Positions 2 through 55,859 of a stretch of DNA of 55,859 bases are shown piece by piece; the first letter of the stretch is position 1, and every line of letters starts with the position of its first letter. The position numbers were made by a program, and so were the translations under genes. Source of the DNA: an uncultured Actinomycetes bacterium (GTDB taxonomy: Bacteria; Actinomycetota; Actinomycetes; Nanopelagicales; Nanopelagicaceae); the NCBI GenBank assembly GCA_903916385.1, contig CAIWWH010000043.1, positions 1-55,859 of the forward strand, given 5' to 3'. The notes below the pieces were generated by a model. That model did not search any database, had not been told where the DNA came from, and saw only the letters and a list, made by a program, of their open reading frames with translations.

Positions 2-580
2 CCGCTCATCATCATCGCCTTCGGGGTTTTCCTCTTAAAAGAGAGGATGCGCCGCTTGCAATGGATCTCGGTGGCTATCGCTTCCCTTGGAGTGATTGTC
101 TTGGCGATTGACTACGGAAGACCCCCATGGATCGCAATTGCACTCGCCACCTCGTGGGGTAGTTACGGTCTAGTTAAAAAACAGCTGGGCTTAGGAGCTT
201 TAGAGGGCCTGGCAATTGAAACCACCCTCTCTCTGATCCCGTATGGTGGCTATCTCATCTGGCTCACTCACAATGGGACCGGTCAGTTTGGACACAAGAT
301 CGGTCTTACGACCCTGCTCATCTTGGCAGGGGTTGTAACTGCAATTCCTCTTTTGATGTTTAATGGCTCAACAAATCGTTTGAAATTTACAATTATTGGG
401 TTGTTGCAATACATCACTCCCACAGTGCAATTTCTTATCGGAGTTTTGGTTAGACACGAAGCGATGACCACCGGACGTTGGTTGGGATTCTTGATTGTGT
501 GGGGTGCGCTCTTCACGCTTGGTTACGACCTCGTTAAATCAGGAAGTTCTGGTGATAATAGTTTCGCAGAGTTCGACTAA
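2..580 (+). CDS. rarD: RarD/EamA-family transporter, C-terminal part (5' truncated by window edge)
   Basis: Open frame from nt 2 (PLIIIAFGVFLLKERM...), hydrophobic EamA-like helices, ending QYITPTVQFLIGVL...RWLGFLIVWGAL as in RarD. Confidence 0.8.
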   Translation, partial: PLIIIAFGVFLLKERMRRLQWISVAIASLGVIVLAIDYGRPPWIAIALATSWGSYGLVKKQLGLGALEGLAIETTLSLIPYGGYLIWLTHNGTGQFGHKIGLTTLLILAGVVTAIPLLMFNGSTNRLKFTIIGLLQYITPTVQFLIGVLVRHEAMTTGRWLGFLIVWGALFTLGYDLVKSGSSGDNSFAEFD

Positions 581-1525
581 AGCTCGCTTTGCGGCCCCAT
601 CGGGCAGGCTCTTCAACTCTAATTGAGCTTCATCGGCATATTTGTGTAGCAATTTTCTGGATGCCACCATTGCGGCGTGAGTGCGGAGCTTCTTCAGAGT
701 CTCTGCGACGATCGTCTCATCCGTGATCGGTGCAGAAAGAATTGTTATTAGCTCTTGATCGGCGGGATCGTCTGACTCTAAGACGAAGAGCGTTACCAAG
801 GTCGGAACACCTTCGCGAAGATCTGTACCAGGCGTCTTTCCACTCTCGTTGGATTCAGAGGCGATATCAATAACGTCATCTGCCAGCTGAAATACAACCC
901 CGATCTTCTCGCCAAAACGCGTCAAAGATTCAACGACTTCAGGAGTTGCTCCAGAGAGTAGCGCTCCAAAACGAGCCGAAGTAGCAATGAGGGAGCCCGT
1001 CTTATCGGCTACAACGTTGAGGTAGTGATCTAGCATCGATAGGCCAACGGTTGAACCTTGCGTCTCGGTAATCTGCCCGATGACGAGTCGCTCAAAAGTA
1101 CGAGCCTGCAGCCGCACCGCTTCAGGCCCCAAGTCAGCCAAGAGGTCTGATGCTTTTGCAAAAAGGTAGTCACCGGTGAGAATTGCCACGGTGTTGTTCC
1201 AACGCGCGTTTGCGCTTTCAACGCCGCGCCGCAGTGGCGCTTCATCCATCACATCGTCGTGGTAGAGGGTTGCAAGGTGGGTTAGTTCGCAGACCACCGC
1301 CGCTTCAATAATCTCTGGTCGTTTTGGATCGCCAAATTGGGCGGCAAGTAAGGCGAGCAATGGTCGCAGCCGCTTGCCTCCGGCCTCCACCAGATGCCTC
1401 GAGGTTTCAATAACAAGGGGGTAATCGCCTTGAATCTGTTTGCGAAGTAGATCCTCCACACGCTTCATATCGGAGCGGATAGAGAGTTCCAGCTTTACAT
1501 CAAGATGCGGAATTCCAAATGCCAT
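539..1525 (-). CDS. Polyprenyl (hepta/octa/nonaprenyl) diphosphate synthase
   Basis: Two Asp-rich motifs: LYHDDVMDEAPLRRG and FQLADDVIDIASE; beside menaquinone genes. Confidence 0.93.
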   Translation of the reverse strand: MAFGIPHLDVKLELSIRSDMKRVEDLLRKQIQGDYPLVIETSRHLVEAGGKRLRPLLALLAAQFGDPKRPEIIEAAVVCELTHLATLYHDDVMDEAPLRRGVESANARWNNTVAILTGDYLFAKASDLLADLGPEAVRLQARTFERLVIGQITETQGSTVGLSMLDHYLNVVADKTGSLIATSARFGALLSGATPEVVESLTRFGEKIGVVFQLADDVIDIASESNESGKTPGTDLREGVPTLVTLFVLESDDPADQELITILSAPITDETIVAETLKKLRTHAAMVASRKLLHKYADEAQLELKSLPDGAAKRALVELCETIITRTS

Positions 1526-1531
1526 AAATTA

Positions 1532-2230
1532 CTACGCAGCCTTGAAGGCGATGTGGACCGCGACGATTCCAAAGGTGAAATTCTGCCAAGCAACAGTTTC
1601 CCAACCTGCGCTCTTGATCTTCTCAGCTAATTGCTCTTGAGTCGGCCAGGCTTGGATTGATTGAGCAAGATAGATGTAGGCATCGGGATTTGAAGATAAT
1701 TTGCGCGCCAACTTTGGAAGAAGGTTCATGAGGTACTTCATATAAATCGTGCGGAACAATTTATTGGTTGGGTGCGAAAACTCAACTACGACCAACCGTC
1801 CACCTGGCTTGGTGACACGCAAGGCCTCTTGCAAAGCCTTATGAACGTCATTTGTGTTACGCAATCCAAATGAGATTGTCGTGACATCAAATTCATCCGA
1901 AGTAAATGGAAGATTTAGCGCATCGGCCAAAGTAAAGGGGAGATCTGGGTGACGCTTCTTGCCGGCATCCAACATCCCTTGCGAGAAGTCGGCCGGGATA
2001 ACAGCTGCACCAGCATCGGCAAGAGGGCGGCTCGAAGAGCCAGTACCTGCTGCGATATCGAGGATCTTCATTCCGGCCTTTGGCGCAATTATGGCTGTCG
2101 CCTTGCGACGCCACGCCTTGGTCTGACCGAGGCTCAGAAGATCGTTCATGAAGTCGTAGCGCTTAGCGACGCCATCGAACATGGAGGCGACCTCTTCAGG
2201 CTCCTTATTGAGATCTGCTGACTTACTCAC
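1532..2230 (-). CDS. menG: Demethylmenaquinone methyltransferase
   Basis: MFDGVAKRYDFMNDLLSLGQTKAWRR and SAM motif ILDIAAGTGSSS; UbiE/MenG family. Confidence 0.93.
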   Translation of the reverse strand: MSKSADLNKEPEEVASMFDGVAKRYDFMNDLLSLGQTKAWRRKATAIIAPKAGMKILDIAAGTGSSSRPLADAGAAVIPADFSQGMLDAGKKRHPDLPFTLADALNLPFTSDEFDVTTISFGLRNTNDVHKALQEALRVTKPGGRLVVVEFSHPTNKLFRTIYMKYLMNLLPKLARKLSSNPDAYIYLAQSIQAWPTQEQLAEKIKSAGWETVAWQNFTFGIVAVHIAFKAA

Positions 2231-2316
2231 GCGTACATTCTTGCGATAGTAGGCTGGTAAAACAACTTCAAACCAGACTCACGCGGGTGTATGGTGCAGG
2301 CTCGAAGGAGAACCAA

Positions 2317-2898
2317 ATGTCGATTTCATCAACCGCAACGCTGCGCGGTGCCTTAATTGCTCGTAGCACCATGGCCACCAAGATTGCACTCGTTGCTGGA
2401 GGCGCCGCCTTTCTTGCACTGATGGCGCAAATCTCGATTGCAGTGCCCGGTTCACCAGTGCCCGTCACAGGACAGACGCTCGGTGCGCTCTTGCTGGGAA
2501 GCGCTTACGGAGCATCACTTGGTTTCACAACATTTGCTACCTATCTGATCGTTGGCTTCTTAGGAGCACCAGTATTTGCTTCCGGGGCGCATGGACTCTC
2601 CCGAATTACCGGAGCTACGGGTGGTTATCTCGTCGGAATGTTATTAGCGTCACTTATCACCGGTTACTTGGCAGGTCGCAAGTGGGATCAGAAGATTGCA
2701 ACCGTTATTCCCACGATGCTCTTCGGCGACGTCATCATCTTTGCGGCTGGCCTCATCTGGCTCCACCACTCCATCCACGCCAATTGGGCCACAACCTACA
2801 AGCTGGGTTTCTCTCCCTTTATCCTCGGCGAAGTGATCAAGATCGCAATCGCTAGTACCACCATGCCGACGCTTTGGCGTTTTGTGCCAAAAGAATAA
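2317..2898 (+). CDS. bioY: Biotin transporter BioY (S component)
   Basis: ISIAVPGSPVPVTGQTLGALLLGSAYGASLG...GAPVFASGAHGL; AAGGAG 6 nt upstream of ATG at 2317, so start moved from 2287. Confidence 0.9.
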   Translation: MSISSTATLRGALIARSTMATKIALVAGGAAFLALMAQISIAVPGSPVPVTGQTLGALLLGSAYGASLGFTTFATYLIVGFLGAPVFASGAHGLSRITGATGGYLVGMLLASLITGYLAGRKWDQKIATVIPTMLFGDVIIFAAGLIWLHHSIHANWATTYKLGFSPFILGEVIKIAIASTTMPTLWRFVPKE

Positions 2899-2917
2899 AG
2901 GTACTTAACTTACGCCT

Positions 2918-4144
2918 ATGGCGTTGCGCATCACCACCGAATTACTCGGGGATCATCCTCGCCTCAGTGAGATTACAACTCACCTACCCCTAAGTGCGAG
3001 TTGGATTCGCGGAGCCGACGGGTTCATTGCATTTGGGAAATATAAGAGCCATACGGTGCAAGGTAAGAAGCGCTTCGCCGAAGCCTCCGCCTGGTGGCAG
3101 AACGAACTCTCGCAATTAGAAATCAAGAACAATGTGCATGGCGTCGGAACTGGTCCAATCGTCTTCACCTCCTTCTCATTCTCCGAGGATCAACCCTCGC
3201 TCCTAGTAATTCCTGAAATTGTTGTTGTTCAGAAAAATGGAAAGTCGTGGATCACCTGGATCGGCGACAGACAGCCTGAGTTAAGCGCGCGAGTGATTCC
3301 TAGCATCGGATTAAGTTTGGAGTGGAAGAACGGCGCACTCACAGATAGTGCGTGGTCGGGTGCGGTCGAAGAATCCGTCTCTCGAATAAAAGCTGGCGAA
3401 CTCGAAAAAGTTGTACTCGCCCGTGATCTCATCGCTAAGTCTGACAAAGTTATAACACCAGCAGCTCTCATTCAATCGCTCGAAAGTGAGTATCCATCTA
3501 CCTGGCTCTTCCTCGTGGAAAACCTCATCGGTGCCACTCCAGAACTGCTCGTGCGTTTAAGTAAATCTCTTGTCACTTCAAGAGTTCTCGCAGGAACGAT
3601 TCGCCGTACCGGTGATGAAGAGCGCGACTTTGCACTAGCAGGCTCTCTCGCTAAATCTTCTAAGGATCTTGAGGAGCACGAATACGCCGTGCGCTCCGTA
3701 GCGCAAGCCTTGGAGCCTTTCGCCTCCTCAACCAACATTCCAGATGCACCTTTCGTCTTGCACCTGCCAAATGTTATGCACCTTGCAACAGATGTCACCG
3801 GGGTTATAAATGACACGGCATCAAAGGTAGATATCTTTAAGTTAGTCGCCGCTTTGCATCCATCAGCTGCTGTCTGCGGAACTCCTACGGATGCGGCACG
3901 AGAACTCATCACCGAACTCGAGTCCATGAACCGCGGAAGATATGCCGGACCCGTCGGCTGGGTAGATGCCCATGGAGATGGCGAGATGGGAATTGCACTG
4001 CGCTGCGGCGAGATTGGTGACGATCAACTTTCAATTCGACTCTTTGCAGGTTGCGGAATCGTTGCGGGCTCTAGCGCGCAGGAGGAGTTAGCGGAGAGTC
4101 AGGCTAAATTGCTTCCGATGCGCAGCGCGCTAACCAGACTCTGA
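2918..4144 (+). CDS. menF: Isochorismate synthase
   Basis: Chorismate-binding signatures: ELEKVVLARDL, LHPSAAVCGTPTDAA, AGCGIVAGSSAQEE; in men locus. Confidence 0.9.
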   Translation: MALRITTELLGDHPRLSEITTHLPLSASWIRGADGFIAFGKYKSHTVQGKKRFAEASAWWQNELSQLEIKNNVHGVGTGPIVFTSFSFSEDQPSLLVIPEIVVVQKNGKSWITWIGDRQPELSARVIPSIGLSLEWKNGALTDSAWSGAVEESVSRIKAGELEKVVLARDLIAKSDKVITPAALIQSLESEYPSTWLFLVENLIGATPELLVRLSKSLVTSRVLAGTIRRTGDEERDFALAGSLAKSSKDLEEHEYAVRSVAQALEPFASSTNIPDAPFVLHLPNVMHLATDVTGVINDTASKVDIFKLVAALHPSAAVCGTPTDAARELITELESMNRGRYAGPVGWVDAHGDGEMGIALRCGEIGDDQLSIRLFAGCGIVAGSSAQEELAESQAKLLPMRSALTRL

Positions 4145-5664
4145 GTAACTTTTTTTAAGGAGGCCGCATTGGTCTCCCGATCCGGCACTTCCACCACTAT
4201 AAAATTTAAACCCGGTGATTGATGGACGATTGAGTGGAGCAGATCGGTCCTGTTCTTCACCTTCGTAACGCTCCCACCAAATCCTTGAATTACCCGTTCT
4301 AAATCCAAGTTATGTGGAGTAGCGAATATCTTCTCAAACCCCTCTACTCCTGATTGCGGTAAGGTATTGAAGATCCCCCCACCGTTATTATCGATAACAA
4401 AGAGCGTCAAGTTTGCAGAGGTCGGGTTAGCCAGCGCAGAGATATCGTGGAGAAATGTGATATCTCCGAGGATGGCATATGAGCGCTCGAACTTTTCTGC
4501 GATTCCAAATGCTGTTGCAATACTTCCATCGATCCCAGCTAAACCTCGATTGGCAAAGGTGTGAATCCCGCTTCGCGGTACCGCAAAAGCTTCAATGTCG
4601 CGGACCGGACGACTGCTGCCGATAAAGAGCGCCGAGCCCTCGGGTAGGGCAGCTGAAATTGAGGCAACCGCTGATTGTTCAGACCAATCAAGGTGGAGTA
4701 CATCACGGGCTTGGGTAGAGATCGCTCTCCATCTATCGAGCCAGACCGAGTCTTTTTCGCAGTATCCATCAGGGAAGTTTGCAAATACTTTGGAAGCGCT
4801 GCGATCCGTATCAACGGTCAGAGTTCGGGGATCGATCACCACGACCTCTTCGCACTCCTTTATAAAAGTGTTGATGCTCCGTGAAAGAGTGGTGCGGCCA
4901 ACTACGACAATTTGATCGGGTCGCAACGTCGCACGCATCTCGGGATCGGTCAGAAGTAGCGAAGCGTGGGCAATCGCTTCTGGAAAGGAGAGTGGATCTT
5001 CGGCTATCAGAGGCCAACCTAATGAGTCAGCAAAGAGAGAGATCGCTAGCGGATCGAAACCGGCTCGATCATGTCCAACAATCAGTAGACCACGCCGAGC
5101 TGGTGAGAAGAGTTCTTGAGTATTGGAGAGTTCTAACTCCAGAGTTTTCGGTGTCAACCCAGCCAACCAATCGCTGCGATCATCACCGAGTAGTGGCTCA
5201 TCAAATTGAATATTGAGATGGGCTGGCCCACCTCTCAACATTTCGGAAACGTTTATGACCGAGGCGATATCGACGGTTTCAATTGGTGCAAGTAACCCGA
5301 CTTGTAAGGTCGTCTGATTAGCTCCCGTTCGTCGTAGGTGTGCAGGACGATCCGCGGTTAAGAAGAGCAATTTATTCGCGGAGTGGTAGGCCTCGAGTGC
5401 GGCCGGATGGTAGTTAGCGACTGCAGTTCCGCTTGTACAGATCACAGCGACGTAAGCATCGGATGCCTTACTCAAGCCCAGTGCAAAGAAGGCGGCCCCC
5501 CGCTCATCAATTCGCACATGGAGATTAATAAGCCCCGCTTGCTCTGCTTCATAAAGAGCAATAGATAACGGAGCGTTACGTGACCCGGGAGAGAGCACAA
5601 AGTCTGCCACTCCTGCCTCAATTAACTGGCGAACAATATTGCGAGCAAGGGCCGTTGAATTCAT
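4099..5664 (-). CDS. menD: 2-succinyl-5-enolpyruvyl-6-hydroxy-3-cyclohexene-1-carboxylate synthase
   Basis: ThDP enzyme: VLSPGSRNAPLSIAL, DERGAAFFALGLSKA, ILGDITFLHDISAL. Confidence 0.95.
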   Translation of the reverse strand: MNSTALARNIVRQLIEAGVADFVLSPGSRNAPLSIALYEAEQAGLINLHVRIDERGAAFFALGLSKASDAYVAVICTSGTAVANYHPAALEAYHSANKLLFLTADRPAHLRRTGANQTTLQVGLLAPIETVDIASVINVSEMLRGGPAHLNIQFDEPLLGDDRSDWLAGLTPKTLELELSNTQELFSPARRGLLIVGHDRAGFDPLAISLFADSLGWPLIAEDPLSFPEAIAHASLLLTDPEMRATLRPDQIVVVGRTTLSRSINTFIKECEEVVVIDPRTLTVDTDRSASKVFANFPDGYCEKDSVWLDRWRAISTQARDVLHLDWSEQSAVASISAALPEGSALFIGSSRPVRDIEAFAVPRSGIHTFANRGLAGIDGSIATAFGIAEKFERSYAILGDITFLHDISALANPTSANLTLFVIDNNGGGIFNTLPQSGVEGFEKIFATPHNLDLERVIQGFGGSVTKVKNRTDLLHSIVHQSPGLNFIVVEVPDRETNAASLKKVTQSLVSALRIGSNLA

Positions 5665-48812: not shown

Positions 48813-49523
48813 ATGGCATTAAATCGACGTGAATTTTTGCGGGGAAGTGCCGCTGTGGCGGGGGCTAGCCTCATTTCGGGCATAACGGACCTCAGCGTGG
48901 GAAGTGACGCAGCGATTGCGGCAAATCCAGATATTGCGAATGGTTCGCGTTCTAAACCTCAGGTTGCTCTAACTTTTCACGGAGCTGGTGATCCAGCTCT
49001 AGTTCAGAAACTGCTCTCTATCTTTAAGAGTTCATCGACTCCGGTTTCTGTCTTTGCCATCGGTACCTGGCTTCGCGGATATCCTGCAGTCGCAAAGCAG
49101 ATGCTCGATGCCGGTTATGACATTGGAAATCACACAATGAATCATTATCAGATGAAAACGCTCAACGCTAAGAGAGTCGACTCAGAAATTGCGGGCTGCG
49201 CAGCTGAGTTGAAGAAATTAATCGGCAACCATGGCAAGTGGTTTCGTCCATCGGGAACACAATATTCAAATGCGATCATTCGCGCCGCTGCGTTGAAATA
49301 CGGCTACAAACAATGCATTGCCTATGATGTGGATTCTCACGACTATCAAGATGTTGGAAAGAGAACGGTTCTTGCAGATATCAGCAAGGTGATTCAAAAT
49401 GGCAGCATCGTAAGCATGCACTTTGGGCACCAGGACACCATTGATGCGATGCCCGCTCTTCTCGAAAATCTGCATGCAAAAGGACTAACCCCAGTCACCT
49501 TAACTACCTTGCTAGGAGCGTAA
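48813..49523 (+). CDS. Tat-exported polysaccharide deacetylase (NodB)-like protein with altered motif 1
   Basis: Twin-arginine signal NRREFLRGSAAVAGASL; VALTFHGAGDP in place of TFDDGP; IGNHTMNHYQM (HxxxH) retained; WFRPSGTQYS. Confidence 0.82.
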   Translation: MALNRREFLRGSAAVAGASLISGITDLSVGSDAAIAANPDIANGSRSKPQVALTFHGAGDPALVQKLLSIFKSSSTPVSVFAIGTWLRGYPAVAKQMLDAGYDIGNHTMNHYQMKTLNAKRVDSEIAGCAAELKKLIGNHGKWFRPSGTQYSNAIIRAAALKYGYKQCIAYDVDSHDYQDVGKRTVLADISKVIQNGSIVSMHFGHQDTIDAMPALLENLHAKGLTPVTLTTLLGA

Positions 49524-49529
49524 TTTCGG

Positions 49530-50636
49530 ATGAAGAAGCAGGTCGCTTTATTGGTGGCTCTCGCAGTATTAGTCCCCATCGCGGGAGCACAGGCAGCACC
49601 ATTGCCGGGCATGCCACCCGTGACAAACCCCAATGATATTTACGCGGCAGACCGCCCCAATAATCTAAGTCCAGTTGTAGTTGGTTTCCCGGAGCGCGTC
49701 TACGTGCCAAACCACACCAGTAATACCGTGACCGAAATTGACCCGAAGACTTTTAAGATCATTCGCACATTTAAGACGCCTGCCGGCCCTCAGCACGTGG
49801 TGCCATCGTGGGATCTCAAGACCCTTTGGGTCAATGACAATGCCGGAAACTACCTGACCCCCATCGATCCCATGACAGGGTTACCCGGAAAATCAATTTA
49901 CGTTCATGATCCTTACAACCTCTACTTCACACCAAATGGAAAGTACGCAGTCGTGATGGCTGAAGCAGACAAGCAGATGGTCTTCCGTGATCCACATACA
50001 ATGGCTATCAAGAAGGTTGTTCCAGTCCCTTGCCCCGGCCTCAACCACGCTGATTGGAGCGCAGACGGCACCTTCTTCGTCGCTACCTGCGAGTTTTCAG
50101 GGCAGATTCTCTTGATGGATACCGCAAAGATGAAGGTACTCAAGGTTGTCAGCCTTCCTCACACCTACACAAAGATGCCTATGCCTCAGGATGTGAAGAT
50201 CTCTCCGGATGGTTCTACCTTCTACATCGCGGACATGATGTCTAACGGCGTGTGGGTGATGCCGGCAAATAACTTTGGAACCTTCTCCTTTATCAAAACC
50301 GGGATTGAAGCGCACGGCATGTATGTAACGCGCGATTCAAAAGATCTCTTGATAACGAATCGAGGCGAAGGTAGCGTCTCGGTTCTCCGCTTCTCCGATA
50401 ACAAGTTAATAGCAAAGTGGAAGATTCCGGGCGGAGGCTCCCCCGATATGGGAGGAATTTCTGCTGATGGCACCCAATTCTGGGTCTCCGGGCGCTATGA
50501 CAACGTGGTGTATGTCTTTGATATCGTCCACGGCAAATTCCTACGCAGCATCAAAGTAGGTAAGGAACCACACGGTCTGGCGATTTATCCCCAGCCTGGT
50601 CGCTATTCCCTCGGACATACGGGAGTATTTAGGTAA
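49530..50636 (+). CDS. Secreted YncE/cytochrome-d1-like beta-propeller protein
   Basis: Signal peptide MKKQVALLVALAVLVPIAGAQA; repeated blades (VYVPNHTSNTVTEIDPKTFKIIRTFKTPAGPQHV ... VVYVFDIVHGKFLRSIKVGKEPHGLAIYP). Confidence 0.82.
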   Translation: MKKQVALLVALAVLVPIAGAQAAPLPGMPPVTNPNDIYAADRPNNLSPVVVGFPERVYVPNHTSNTVTEIDPKTFKIIRTFKTPAGPQHVVPSWDLKTLWVNDNAGNYLTPIDPMTGLPGKSIYVHDPYNLYFTPNGKYAVVMAEADKQMVFRDPHTMAIKKVVPVPCPGLNHADWSADGTFFVATCEFSGQILLMDTAKMKVLKVVSLPHTYTKMPMPQDVKISPDGSTFYIADMMSNGVWVMPANNFGTFSFIKTGIEAHGMYVTRDSKDLLITNRGEGSVSVLRFSDNKLIAKWKIPGGGSPDMGGISADGTQFWVSGRYDNVVYVFDIVHGKFLRSIKVGKEPHGLAIYPQPGRYSLGHTGVFR

Positions 50637-52303
50637 TGAAATCGCACCGTTGGATTCCGGTCTGGATAGGTCGAGCGACTTTTCTAGTCGGGCTCTTCGA
50701 CATTCTGGCCAGCATCTTTCGTAAATTTCGGGCGCCAGTACACAAGCTAGACCATCTTTTCCCCGTCTTCCTAAACGGCTCTGCATTGGCAACCTCTATC
50801 TTCACTGGACTTGTTTTGATGATCCTGGCTCGTGGCCTCTCACGACGTAAACGCCGCGCCTGGATTCTGGCCTTGATCATGCTAACCGCCAACCTGATCG
50901 CTGACTTGATAAAGACAAATCATCACCCGGTGCAAATAATCCTCTCTATCCTCAGCATCATTGCTCTCGTCGTCTTTAGAAAATCCTTCTACGCGAAATC
51001 CGATCCAGGTACACGATTACAGCCAATTATCGGGTTCAGCATTGCGGTGGTTGTCTTTTTCATCGCAAGCCTCTTACTTCTTAAGTTTCGCAACCAAGAT
51101 GAGATCGTAGGTACCCCTTCGGTTAAAAATATCTTCCTTTTCATTATTGAAGGGCTGGTCGGAGTCGTCGGTCCAGTGAAATTTACATCTGAACGAACCA
51201 CAGATTTTATCGCCTTCACGCTTGGAACGTTCGGGGTATTTACGCTCATAGTTCCACTCTGGTTGTACTTCCGCCGCGTTAAGCCAATACCGAAAATGTC
51301 CGTAGACGAGATGGACGTGGTTCGAAAGTTAATCAAACACGATACCGAACAAGACTCTCTCGGCTACTTTGCCACAAGGCGAGATAAGAGCGTTATCTGG
51401 GCTCCCAATCGCAAAGCCGGCATCGCATATCGCGTGCAGGGTGGGGTCATGCTCGCTAGCGGTGATCCATTTGGCGAGTACAGCTTGTGGCCCGCTGCAA
51501 TCCAAGAATTCTTGCGCGAAGCAGAGGAACATGCCTGGACACCGGCTGTCATGGGATGCAGTGATCGTGGTGGAGAAGTTTGGGTGGAACATGCCGGAAT
51601 GATCGCAATTGATATCGGTGATGAGGCGATCATCTCCGTCAAGGATTTCACGCTCGAAGGTAGGCCGATGGCAAATGTGCGCCAGATGGTCAATAGAATT
51701 AAGCGAAAAGGTTATTCGTGTACCACTCATAAGTGGTCTGATGTTGAAGAGGATGTCCGCGTTCAACTCCGCAAACTGGCGCACGAGTGGCGCTACGGTG
51801 TTGCAGAGCGTGGCTTTTCTATGTCAATGGATCGCTTTGGTGAAGATTCCGATCCCGATACCTACATCACCATCGCTTGGCTAGAGGGCGAGATTAAAGG
51901 GCTTCTTTACTACGTTCCGTGGACGACAAACGGACTATCGCTTGATCGCATGCAGCGCGAACGGGGGACCGATCCCGGAGTAAACGAGTTAATGATCGTT
52001 GAGACAGTGGAATGGGCGCGCGCCAACAAGAAAGATTATGTCTCACTCAACTTTGCGGCTTTCCGCTCGCTCTTCGAACGAGCCGACAAGATAAGTGCCG
52101 GTCCAATCACGCGCGGAATGCGAAATTTGATTCGCTTCTCATCAAACTTCTTCCAAGTCGAATCTCTCTACCGCTTCAATGCAAAGTTCCAACCCGGATG
52201 GGAAACGCGTTACGTTCTCTATCCGCGCGCCTCGGACCTACCAAGGGTCGGTTGGGCTGCACTGCGCGCCGAAAAATTTATTTCTGGCTTCCGCTCGCGC
52301 TAG
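50636..52303 (+). CDS. Membrane protein with DUF2156/MprF C-terminal (phosphatidylglycerol lysyltransferase-like) domain
   Basis: N-terminal TM helices, then AGIAYRVQGGVMLASGDPFGE, GYSCTTHKWSDVEEDVRVQLRKLAHEW, NELMIVETVEWARANKKDYVSLNFAAF. Confidence 0.85.
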   Translation: MKSHRWIPVWIGRATFLVGLFDILASIFRKFRAPVHKLDHLFPVFLNGSALATSIFTGLVLMILARGLSRRKRRAWILALIMLTANLIADLIKTNHHPVQIILSILSIIALVVFRKSFYAKSDPGTRLQPIIGFSIAVVVFFIASLLLLKFRNQDEIVGTPSVKNIFLFIIEGLVGVVGPVKFTSERTTDFIAFTLGTFGVFTLIVPLWLYFRRVKPIPKMSVDEMDVVRKLIKHDTEQDSLGYFATRRDKSVIWAPNRKAGIAYRVQGGVMLASGDPFGEYSLWPAAIQEFLREAEEHAWTPAVMGCSDRGGEVWVEHAGMIAIDIGDEAIISVKDFTLEGRPMANVRQMVNRIKRKGYSCTTHKWSDVEEDVRVQLRKLAHEWRYGVAERGFSMSMDRFGEDSDPDTYITIAWLEGEIKGLLYYVPWTTNGLSLDRMQRERGTDPGVNELMIVETVEWARANKKDYVSLNFAAFRSLFERADKISAGPITRGMRNLIRFSSNFFQVESLYRFNAKFQPGWETRYVLYPRASDLPRVGWAALRAEKFISGFRSR

Positions 52304-53465
52304 GCGTAGCGGTTGGTCTTGGGAAAGTTGTTGGTGGCGATACCGGAGCAGGAGAGACAACCGGAGTTGCAATAATATTCGCATCGCTTAACCATAAAAA
52401 TCCCGGCGCAATATACGGCTTCCAGACTCCGATGTTGTGACCGCCCGTTGGGATTGGAACGTATTTAATCGGGATCAAATCATTGCCACTCTTCATAAAT
52501 TTTTGCGAAGAAGTGTTAGAGAATTTATCTTTGACTGAAGAGATAACCATGATCCGAGTGTTGCGGGCGTGATGTTTCAGATAATAAATAAGGTCGTAAC
52601 GGCTCGAGAGATAATTCTTCTCCCGCTTGGAGAGTCCAAATGGAAGGCTGGGTTGAAAATAGCCGGCGAGTGAAACACCCTGCGCATACTGATCCTGATG
52701 CAAAACCGCTACCTCGGCCGCACACCAACCTCCAGTGGAATAACCAAAGGATGACCAGCGACGGTTGTCGATTCCCATAAAATTCTGCATGAATGTCTTC
52801 ATGTCACGAGTGATCCAGGTTTCAACTTGAGCTCCCCCCACAAAGTTCATGCACTCCGTGTCCGTACCGGGCTCCACATTGATCGCAGGGATTACCGCAA
52901 GTGTCGGAGGAATCTGACCCGCGATCTCTAAATTCTCCATCGTGGTGATGCCATCAAGAGTTCCGATCCAAGTCTGCGGGACGCCGGGTGTACCCGGGAA
53001 GAGTTCGACTACCTGATAGTTGCTACCAATTGTGTGCGCCGGGGCTAGGAGTTGGGTGGCCAACTTTGGAGAGGCGACCACGTATACAACATTCGAGATT
53101 CCGGATTTTTCACCCGTAATCACCTTCCGGAAGATGAGGCTTCCACCCTTGGTACGAGTAGCTGAAAGGAGATCTTTCAGGCTGATCTGGGTTAGATTAG
53201 CTGGACTGAGGGCAATCTTTGCGTACTGCCCCTGAGCCCCAAATAGGTCAGACCATGACTCGTAAAAATTTCCCCAGCGATTAACGGTGATACCAGTCGC
53301 AGCTAGCGCAAGACACTGGATCGCGATGATAAGCGAGAAGCGTGCAGTGATGTTCTTCCAGTGCTTATCCGTAAATTTATGCCAGAAGTAGACCGTCCCA
53401 AGCAAAAGTGCAATCGTTAGGATCCAAAAGAAGATCTCGGTCCCGAGCGATAAGAGAGGCAACAT
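52278..53465 (-). CDS. Membrane-anchored esterase (alpha/beta hydrolase, Ag85/esterase D-like)
   Basis: N-terminal TM helices; nucleophile elbow SSFGYSTGGWCAAEVAV; C-terminal IPTGGHNIGVWKPYIAPGFLWL. Confidence 0.82.
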   Translation of the reverse strand: MLPLLSLGTEIFFWILTIALLLGTVYFWHKFTDKHWKNITARFSLIIAIQCLALAATGITVNRWGNFYESWSDLFGAQGQYAKIALSPANLTQISLKDLLSATRTKGGSLIFRKVITGEKSGISNVVYVVASPKLATQLLAPAHTIGSNYQVVELFPGTPGVPQTWIGTLDGITTMENLEIAGQIPPTLAVIPAINVEPGTDTECMNFVGGAQVETWITRDMKTFMQNFMGIDNRRWSSFGYSTGGWCAAEVAVLHQDQYAQGVSLAGYFQPSLPFGLSKREKNYLSSRYDLIYYLKHHARNTRIMVISSVKDKFSNTSSQKFMKSGNDLIPIKYVPIPTGGHNIGVWKPYIAPGFLWLSDANIIATPVVSPAPVSPPTTFPRPTATPSASGSQK

Positions 53466-53491: not shown

Positions 53492-53755
53492 CTACTCAAC
53501 CTCACGCGGCGGATCATCTGAGTCATCGTAGGTAGGTTGTGGTTGGGAGAGTTTCCAGTACATGTAATAAATGAAGACTCCAAAAAATGGCCACTCAATC
53601 ACATAAACCCAGCTGAGGTGATTGCCGCCTAATGCGCGATTGAACTCCAAAACCCCCATAAGACCGCAGAGAGGCAAGCCCCAGAGCACCCAGCGCCGTT
53701 TTGGTTCCGGTTCTTGAACTTGAGGTTCGGGGTTAGGCGGTTCTTGACTGCTCAT
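53492..53755 (-). CDS. Small actinobacterial-type membrane protein of unknown function
   Basis: RRWVLWGLPLCGLMGVLEFNRALGGNHLSWVYVIEWPFFGVFIYYMYWKL; overlaps ctaG start. Confidence 0.65.
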   Translation of the reverse strand: MSSQEPPNPEPQVQEPEPKRRWVLWGLPLCGLMGVLEFNRALGGNHLSWVYVIEWPFFGVFIYYMYWKLSQPQPTYDDSDDPPREVE

Positions 53756-54536
53756 CTTCCTCTTCCGCTAGCAGTTGCTCATTCGCGAACCAATCTTTGG
53801 CAGCGAGGACGATCCAGATGGTGTCGATCAGCATTCCCATCGCCCACATTATCGCGCCACCTCGATGCTGATCGGCAAGACCCATCTGCATCGTGGTCTG
53901 TTTTGGCAAGGAGTGCAGTACTCGGTTTCCGGAGTAGAGGAAGAAGCCGACCATCGTCTCGGGCAACATCATGGCAAAGAGGGAGATCACCCTAATTGAG
54001 TAAGGAACGGGGAAGGGGTGGGGATTTCCCTCCATCACCGGGTAGTAATAGACAAATCCACCGAGCAGAAAGAGGATGAGCTCAAGACAGTGCGCGTTGG
54101 GATTGGTCATTCCAAGATTGGCCAGCGGCGAGAAGTGAGTTCCAATCAAGACCGTCAGGAAGATGGCAAAACCGACTTGAGGTTTGAAGAGGGTCCGAAC
54201 AAGAGAGTTTGATCCAACCTTATTAATTCCGCTTCGTACCTGCGGATACTTTGAGCGCAGTGCAACAGCGATAGGAGACCCCAAAACAAGGAGGGGTGAA
54301 ATCAACATCATCAACCCGATGTGTTGAATCATATGAACCCAAAAAGTTCGTATCGCAGCATGAGGCACCGGGCCCACCAAGAGGATGAAGCTGAGAGTCA
54401 ATCCCGAGATAAAGCAGATTTGGCGGATGAGGGAGACAGATTGACGGGCAGCACTTTCCGATAGGTACCAAACTCCGGTGCCGAGGAGAAGGATCGCAAA
54501 GAAGAGATCCCATGTTGGGTTGAGTCCCATCCTCAC
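53733..54536 (-). CDS. Cytochrome c oxidase assembly protein, CtaG (caa3) type
   Basis: VHMIQHIGLMMLISPLLVLGSPIAVALR and DQHRGGAIMWAMGMLIDTIWIVLAAKDWF, multi-TM. Confidence 0.87.
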   Translation of the reverse strand: MRMGLNPTWDLFFAILLLGTGVWYLSESAARQSVSLIRQICFISGLTLSFILLVGPVPHAAIRTFWVHMIQHIGLMMLISPLLVLGSPIAVALRSKYPQVRSGINKVGSNSLVRTLFKPQVGFAIFLTVLIGTHFSPLANLGMTNPNAHCLELILFLLGGFVYYYPVMEGNPHPFPVPYSIRVISLFAMMLPETMVGFFLYSGNRVLHSLPKQTTMQMGLADQHRGGAIMWAMGMLIDTIWIVLAAKDWFANEQLLAEEEDEQSRTA

Positions 54537-54575
54537 CTACCTCTCAAGAAATTCTCGGAAACTGCTCTTTCACTT

Positions 54576-54595
54576 GGTGAGTGCTGCCACTCACC
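54576..54595. promoter_or_regulatory. Perfect 8-bp-arm inverted repeat (GGTGAGTG-CTGC-CACTCACC), candidate operator
   Basis: Exact palindromic arms with 4-nt spacer in the divergent intergenic region between ctaG-like and cupredoxin genes; no T-tract on either strand's 3' side. Confidence 0.55.
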
Positions 54596-54706
54596 CCAAA
54601 AAAATAGTTGCAAGTAGAAAGCATCCGCTTGTTCCTTAGATCACATTTCAAGCGTACTCTCCATCTATTCATTCTCGGTACTTCCCACACTTACCCTCAG
54701 GAAAGG

Positions 54707-55456
54707 ATGTCCGTGGAAACAGCCACACCCTCAAAGGCGAGGACAGCAATCGGTGCGCTCTTAGCAGTCGCACTTGGAATTGTTGTAGTCGCCGGCGTCG
54801 GCTTTACTCTTCATAAAGTCTCCGCCGATCCCCAACCAAAACTCTACGCAACCAAGGTAGGCACAATTACCGCCGCCGATGGCAAGACATATAACCATTA
54901 CACAATTGCAGATGGGGTCTACCCAGATCCTATTAACTCTAAGGCGCATGGCACATGTGCGACCTGCGATGGTGGTCATCCAAGCTGGCCTTCATACGGT
55001 CCTTATACAGATTTCGTCCTTCCAGCTAACTCGTACATCACGGTGACTCTGACTGTGTATGACAGCGGAGAGAAATTGAATACTCCGTACTTTGGAAGTG
55101 TCGTGGGTACTGTTGATGGAACAGTCTCGTATGACGGTGTATCTAAAAGTTCGCTTCCTTTTGATGCCGTAGAACACACCTTCACGCTGCACGGCCTTCC
55201 AACCTCTACACAAGACCCGCTCTTTGTGAATGTTCCTCTACCTGTTAATACCGATGCAGAGATGAAGGCGTACAACGACGATCCAACAAAGCTGCCAATC
55301 GGCCACAAGGTTACTTTTTCCTTCATAACAAAGGGCGCCGGTAACTACGTGTGGAACTGCGAATATCCATGCGGAGATTCGACCTACCAAGGATTTGGCG
55401 CAGTGATGGGCCAACTTGGTTACATGAGTGGAAAGGTGAGTGTTGTAAATGGCTGA
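54707..55456 (+). CDS. Membrane-anchored cupredoxin-domain protein, CuA-like but non-canonical
   Basis: N-terminal TM; AVEHTFTLHGL; YVWNCEYPCGDSTYQGFGAVMGQLGYMSGKVSV; start moved to ATG 54707 with GAAAGG upstream. Confidence 0.72.
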   Translation: MSVETATPSKARTAIGALLAVALGIVVVAGVGFTLHKVSADPQPKLYATKVGTITAADGKTYNHYTIADGVYPDPINSKAHGTCATCDGGHPSWPSYGPYTDFVLPANSYITVTLTVYDSGEKLNTPYFGSVVGTVDGTVSYDGVSKSSLPFDAVEHTFTLHGLPTSTQDPLFVNVPLPVNTDAEMKAYNDDPTKLPIGHKVTFSFITKGAGNYVWNCEYPCGDSTYQGFGAVMGQLGYMSGKVSVVNG

Positions 55457-55859
55457 CCATGACCACGAAGAGTTAGCTCCGACTCCGGGAGCGCGAGTCG
55501 GAAAATTCATTAACCGTGGAGATGTTCGCCAGACTCTCCTGCTGGGACTTTTCTTCACGATTGTATTTGTAGTTCTGGGACGATGGGTCTATCCACATTG
55601 GATGCCGACAGTCCTTAGTAAGCAGATGCAGTCAAACGAAGACATCATGATTTGGTTTACGGTGATATCCGCTCCGATCGCTGGAGTGGTTTTGGCGATC
55701 GCGACGCAATCTTTCTTACATATGCATCGTGGAGATACGCCGCCCGAAGAGGGAATCGCCATCCGGACTAACACCCCAGTGGTGATTGTTTGGACCGCAA
55801 CTTCAGTTCTCTTCTGCATCGTCGCAATTGTTTGGGGCCTAGTTGCGCTTAACACCGAG
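55449..55859 (+). CDS. Cytochrome c oxidase subunit II-like membrane protein (3' truncated by window edge)
   Basis: ATG overlaps previous stop; MADHDHEELAPTPGARVG...IMIWFTVISAPIAGVVLAIATQSFL...TPPEEGIAIRTNTPVVIVWTATSVLFCIVAIVWGL resembles the two-helix COX2 N-terminus; open to window end. Confidence 0.6.
   Translation, partial: MADHDHEELAPTPGARVGKFINRGDVRQTLLLGLFFTIVFVVLGRWVYPHWMPTVLSKQMQSNEDIMIWFTVISAPIAGVVLAIATQSFLHMHRGDTPPEEGIAIRTNTPVVIVWTATSVLFCIVAIVWGLVALNTE

Follow-up and report, generated by a model that had tools for sequence, protein, structure and literature searches.

A second haem-copper oxidase locus with a probable membrane-anchored cupredoxin partner in lake actinobacteria

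The window (the whole 55,859-nt stretch analysed, which is contig C43 in full) closes on four genes that were assigned, with moderate confidence, to a second haem-copper oxidase locus with a dedicated, anchored cupredoxin, which would act as an AcoP-like partner passing electrons to CuA. A redox partner of COX2 was the most economical reading given the constant linkage of the two genes, the membrane anchor, the fold class and the invariant soft ligands of the cupredoxin. A further proposal is offered tentatively: that the oxidase represents an undescribed branch free of the K-channel Lys, moving protons by another route in which the invariant helix-VIII Glu takes part, and that the cupredoxin supplying its electrons has a new His/Cys2/Met2 copper centre, perhaps a CuA variant with Met replacing a His.

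Organisation of the locus and its occurrence in relatives

The source genome (1.35 Mb, 160 contigs, 95% complete) carries the locus on a contig that breaks off within the COX2-like gene. Coordinates and strands were re-read (Table 1), and the four genes, their positions and their divergent order agreed with the first-pass annotation, as did the 8-bp overlap of the cupredoxin gene's end with the beginning of COX2, which is identical in locus L023. The partial COX2 was 76% identical to residues 1-137 of L023 COX2. Translation of the cupredoxin probably starts at GTG 54713, since its relatives begin VET... and GGAAAGG lies six bases upstream. Contig C15 opens with the C-terminal 270 aa of COX1, followed by COX3; ~1.5 kb between C43 and C15 is unassembled, and the CuA half of COX2 falls in this gap. 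The earlier proposal of an oxidase locus was supported, subunits I and III coming next, and so was its description of the Cys-bearing cupredoxin as a separate protein.

Table 1. Features at the end of the window (positions in nucleotides of the window)
Feature	Position	Strand	Remarks
Small two-TM protein	53492-53755	-	Conserved cassette partner; no Pfam family in the Pfam search
CtaG, Caa3_CtaG type	53733-54536	-	Pfam PF09678, 6.9e-45
Divergent intergenic region, ctaG/cupredoxin	54537-54706	.	Short conserved blocks upstream of cupredoxin
Membrane-anchored cupredoxin	54707-55456	+	N-terminal TM helix, then cupredoxin domain
Cupredoxin TM anchor, residues 10-39	54734-54823	+	AlphaFold2 helix 10-39
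Cupredoxin His157, putative copper ligand	55175-55177	+	Sole invariant His of the family, 89/89
Cupredoxin Cys218-x3-Cys222, putative copper ligands	55358-55372	+	Each Cys 89/89
Cupredoxin Met234, putative ligand at T1/CuA second-His loop position	55406-55408	+	89/89
Cupredoxin Met240, putative ligand matching T1/CuA axial Met	55424-55426	+	89/89
COX2 (ctaC) of second oxidase, first 137 aa	55449-55859	+	Open at contig end

In same-genus relatives the intact order was the small protein and ctaG divergent from a same-strand series of cupredoxin, COX2 (266 aa), COX1 (about 620-640 aa) and COX3 (201 aa). The cupredoxin was present in 22/25 genomes of the genus. A single scan across GTDB representative genomes gave 429 encoded relatives, 79 of which were retained as loci, chiefly from lake actinobacteria (strain IMCC19121 and a Planktophila MAG among them), together with Pseudonocardiales and other actinobacterial MAGs. 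Among these 79 loci from other genomes, COX2 lay after the cupredoxin in all 76 with enough downstream sequence, and COX1 and COX3 came next wherever the contig had room. Given the presence of the cupredoxin in 22/25 genomes of the genus and of COX2 after it in 76/76 usable loci, the arrangement is not due to chance. CtaG and the small protein flanked the cupredoxin in most loci, mostly in divergent orientation; both were co-oriented with it in L096 and missing from L097 and L124. A plasmid search returned no relatives of the cupredoxin.

Two full cupredoxin-COX2-COX1-COX3 sets were found in tandem in one genome (L095, from 404-5120 onward). Next to the cassette, window positions 48813-53465 hold deacetylase-like, beta-propeller YVTN-like, lysyltransferase-like and esterase-like genes (named by eye), part of which many same-genus relatives keep in this place.

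CtaG, whose identification is certain, belongs to the oxidase assembly factors, with insertion of CuB as its tentative role (PMC9145763). The small two-TM protein, possibly a small oxidase subunit or an assembly factor, carries the motif ExxRAxxGNxxSWxYVxEWP, whose invariant residues were also found in members from another class. Short DNA blocks around TGTTCC and AGCGTA at 54630-54700 were common to six relatives and possibly mark a promoter or regulator site; a sigma-70 promoter scan of the ctaG/cupredoxin intergenic region returned no consensus.

The cupredoxin, its candidate copper site and its proposed role

The cupredoxin was modelled twice with AlphaFold2, from 13 sequences (model 1, pLDDT 75) and, for the soluble domain, from 52 sequences (model 2, pLDDT 87, pTM 0.87). 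Confidence in model 2 was low only around domain residues 41-50 and 181-200, of which the second stretch forms the putative copper loop (blocks 49-62). Both models matched auracyanin, rusticyanin, Thermus ba3 subunit II (CuA) and AcoP in the PDB, and the predicted Greek-key beta-sandwich with a copper loop between the last strands places the protein in the cupredoxin superfamily. Each of these matches is either a copper protein that carries electrons in respiration or a CuA domain, and as far as the models go they count for a redox role. At the sequence level, neither the single cupredoxin nor the 52-sequence profile had a significant match among solved structures, and a search including 52 members assigned the cupredoxin to no Pfam or NCBIfam family; one distant member exceeded the Pfam Cupredoxin_1 cut-off (28.1 vs 27).

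His157, Cys218, Cys222, Met234 and Met240 (window numbering) were invariant in 89/89 cupredoxins, and none of the 89 has a conserved His after CxxxC. The CuA motif Hx34Cx3Cx3Hx2M (PMC6189053) is thus incomplete for lack of the second His, and the type 1 set of two His, one Cys and an axial Met is likewise incomplete, with H157 the sole invariant His. The putative site is neither canonical CuA nor canonical blue-copper, and may be mononuclear or a binuclear CuA variant. The initial label of 'CuA-like' was borne out in part: CxxxC, a His and Met never vary, whereas the second CuA His is missing family-wide. The invariant set matched none of the known copper sites compared in the analysis.

The genome encodes an ordinary bcc-aa3 chain (qcrCAB and cta genes on C37), a bd oxidase and the second A-family oxidase. 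With PF13442 as the one cytochrome c profile used, a search of the 95% complete genome turned up no free c-type cytochrome; the two domains of QcrC were its only haem-c matches, which makes it unlikely that the donor is a soluble cytochrome c.

The cupredoxin would be an additional, N-terminally anchored redox subunit or partner of the COX2/COX1/COX3 oxidase, most likely situated beside COX2 on the outer side of the membrane. Copper would be bound through the five invariant residues, and electrons would pass from the cupredoxin to CuA. They would probably enter from QcrC of the bcc complex, since the PF13442 search brought up no free c-type cytochrome. Fast electron transfer is not assured, because the second His is missing from the putative copper site, and the cupredoxin could instead be a structural partner; such a role is conceivable by analogy with AcoP, for which the main demonstrated effect is that it sustains its own oxidase's activity.

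Distant members of the family occur in a different setting: at L165 (5621-8220, minus strand), four tandem family genes lie directly upstream of a 4Fe-4S protein and an NrfD membrane protein. The family thus seems to serve another respiratory complex too, and this tandem placement suggests a redox module of general use in respiration more than a chaperone for CuA, a function hard to square with such a setting. The NrfD-linked members therefore count for a redox role.

The strongest rival, itself unlikely, is that the cupredoxin stands outside the electron flow, as an assembly factor for CuA copper (Sco/PCuAC-like) or as a stabiliser of the oxidase. The cassette does encode one assembly factor, CtaG, and AcoP maintains oxidase activity; the combination of CxxxC and His in the cupredoxin recalls the Sco ligand set. 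However, two Sco-family matches lie elsewhere in the genome (both on C13), the canonical aa3 operon has no such cupredoxin beside it, and members of the family stand beside FeS/NrfD complexes that have no CuA.

Far less probable, and largely refuted, is the option, raised in the first-pass annotation, of a split or duplicated subunit II, by which the cupredoxin would be a further CuA domain. Its fold resembles ba3 subunit II and it shares CxxxC and Met with CuA, but the second CuA His, and with it the canonical motif, is lacking in 89/89 members. That annotation had also asked whether the truncated COX2 has a CuA domain of its own, and a complete CuA site was found in relatives: among 83 COX2 sequences, H193 was present in 83/83 and C228, C232, H236 and M239 in 80-81/83, the sequences missing ligands being mostly truncated. 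As COX2 retains its own complete site, the cupredoxin does not represent a detached part of subunit II making up for a missing CuA domain, and comparison of the cupredoxin and COX2 profiles gave no detectable homology (hhalign probability 0.3%); the split reading was rejected on these two grounds.

Subunit I: the K-channel lysine and the helix-VIII glutamate

Cassette COX1 was ~40% identical to the canonical COX1 and scored under all NCBIfam aa3 cut-offs. Residues were counted in 75 distinct cassette sequences (Paracoccus numbering for Lys354 and Ser291). The haem and CuB His ligands, the Tyr of the His-Tyr pair (GHPEVY) and E286 were present in 75/75, and by the haem/CuB His and His-Tyr residues the cassette enzyme is classed, from sequence, as an A-family haem-copper oxygen reductase. 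The D-channel Asp (D132) was found in 70/75, the other five having R, G or K. The K-channel Lys354 was absent from all 75, replaced by L, I, T, M or V, and Ser291 was replaced by M, L or G in every one; ten canonical paralogues had Lys354 in 10/10 and Ser or Thr at 291. The oxidase had been called unusual at the outset, which proved correct for a reason the earlier reading missed, the loss of this Lys. The K-channel is a fingerprint of A-type oxygen reductases, with analogues in the B and C types (PMC3084760, PMC8079940).

An invariant Glu in helix VIII (E421 in L023) lies nine residues before the lost Lys position; F, M, Y or another residue stands there in canonical enzymes. In 119 COX1 sequences, including Proteobacteria, Bacillota and Halobacteria, Lys and this Glu excluded each other throughout (79 vs 40), in counts that are not independent. 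On a tree of 40 COX1 sequences the loss of Lys amounted to three changes, with only one independent contrast on well-supported branches, and the cupredoxin-linked COX1s formed one side of a branch (SH-aLRT 72). Three Lys-less groups fell outside the cupredoxin set (L167, L175/L178 and L201). No cupredoxin of the family was found in the readable neighbourhoods of the first two (L207 around L167, L208 around L175, and L178); the third is a Shinella plasmid oxidase with an annotated coxB immediately upstream. The presence of Lys-less groups with no cupredoxin nearby indicates that the Lys/Glu swap is wider than the cupredoxin partnership, and the mutual exclusivity of the two residues may be the more important finding.

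The least probable reading of all, that the oxidase is an eNOR-like nitric oxide reductase misread as an oxygen reductase, is favoured by the missing K-channel Lys and by a helix-VIII acidic residue reminiscent of the Glu of NOR (HHx(Ar)(Ar)x17E), but was rejected on the active-site Tyr in 75/75 COX1, where eNOR has Gln, and is further opposed by a Glu two residues nearer the His pair than the NOR motif requires and by the absence of the NOR motif HxArxE.

Relative to canonical forms, cassette COX1 carries an N-terminal extension of ~100-125 aa (residues 1-125 in L023). The extension also occurs in L169-L174, L176 and L177, and is common to Lys-bearing actinobacterial oxidases with Ala at the Glu286 position; from this shared occurrence it probably predates the cupredoxin partnership.

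Significance and comparison with known systems

Loss of the Lys together with gain of the helix-VIII Glu constitutes a natural experiment on proton delivery to the active site, and with the K-channel Lys missing the second oxidase may reduce oxygen slightly differently. These actinobacteria yielded no free cytochrome c, and for them the cupredoxin is a plausible private electron-transfer partner. The cassette genes are common, with the relatives counted above in GTDB representatives including many from lake actinobacteria. A literature search, with a 2024 haem-copper survey outside its scope, found no description of the cassette, the cupredoxin family, its ligand set or K-channel loss in A-type enzymes. 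That survey, in PNAS, reportedly introduces new haem-copper families, and the cassette oxidase may already be described there.

An accessory cupredoxin in an oxidase cluster is of a kind already known. AcoP of Acidithiobacillus ferrooxidans is a cupredoxin that binds both cytochrome c and the oxidase, whose activity it supports, and the genes of its homologues lie within clusters for cytochrome c oxidase (PMC4059628). The cassette cupredoxin shares this genomic setting and the cupredoxin fold, AcoP being among its PDB matches; AcoP, however, has one Cys in C-x6-H-x4-M plus an upstream His (His85), a ligand set absent from the cassette family, which has CxxxC, one His and two Met. The ordinary bcc-aa3 system of the same genome (CtaC/D/E/F, QcrCAB) has the same A-family haem and CuB ligands, Tyr and D-channel, whereas the cassette has no qcr genes or cytochrome c and its COX1 lacks the K-channel Lys and is N-terminally extended.

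PmoD holds a CuA site in a cupredoxin homodimer (PMC6189053) and illustrates that a CuA site with an unusual ligand set is possible in an operon-encoded membrane cupredoxin, although its motif (Cx7MxHxnC) lies in another fold region and its partner is methane monooxygenase. The PCuAC chaperone motif H(M)x10Mx21HxM does not occur in the cassette family, in which a single His and the CxxxC are invariant. The CuA domain of COX2 resembles the cupredoxin in fold and in having His, CxxxC and Met, but the cupredoxin lacks the second His, is independent, stands beside a complete COX2 and has no profile similarity to it. Rusticyanin and auracyanin were the top structural matches, in which a His, a Cys and the axial Met are placed similarly; the cupredoxin differs from them in having Met at the second-His position (compare the engineered His143Met rusticyanin, 2cal) and a second Cys.
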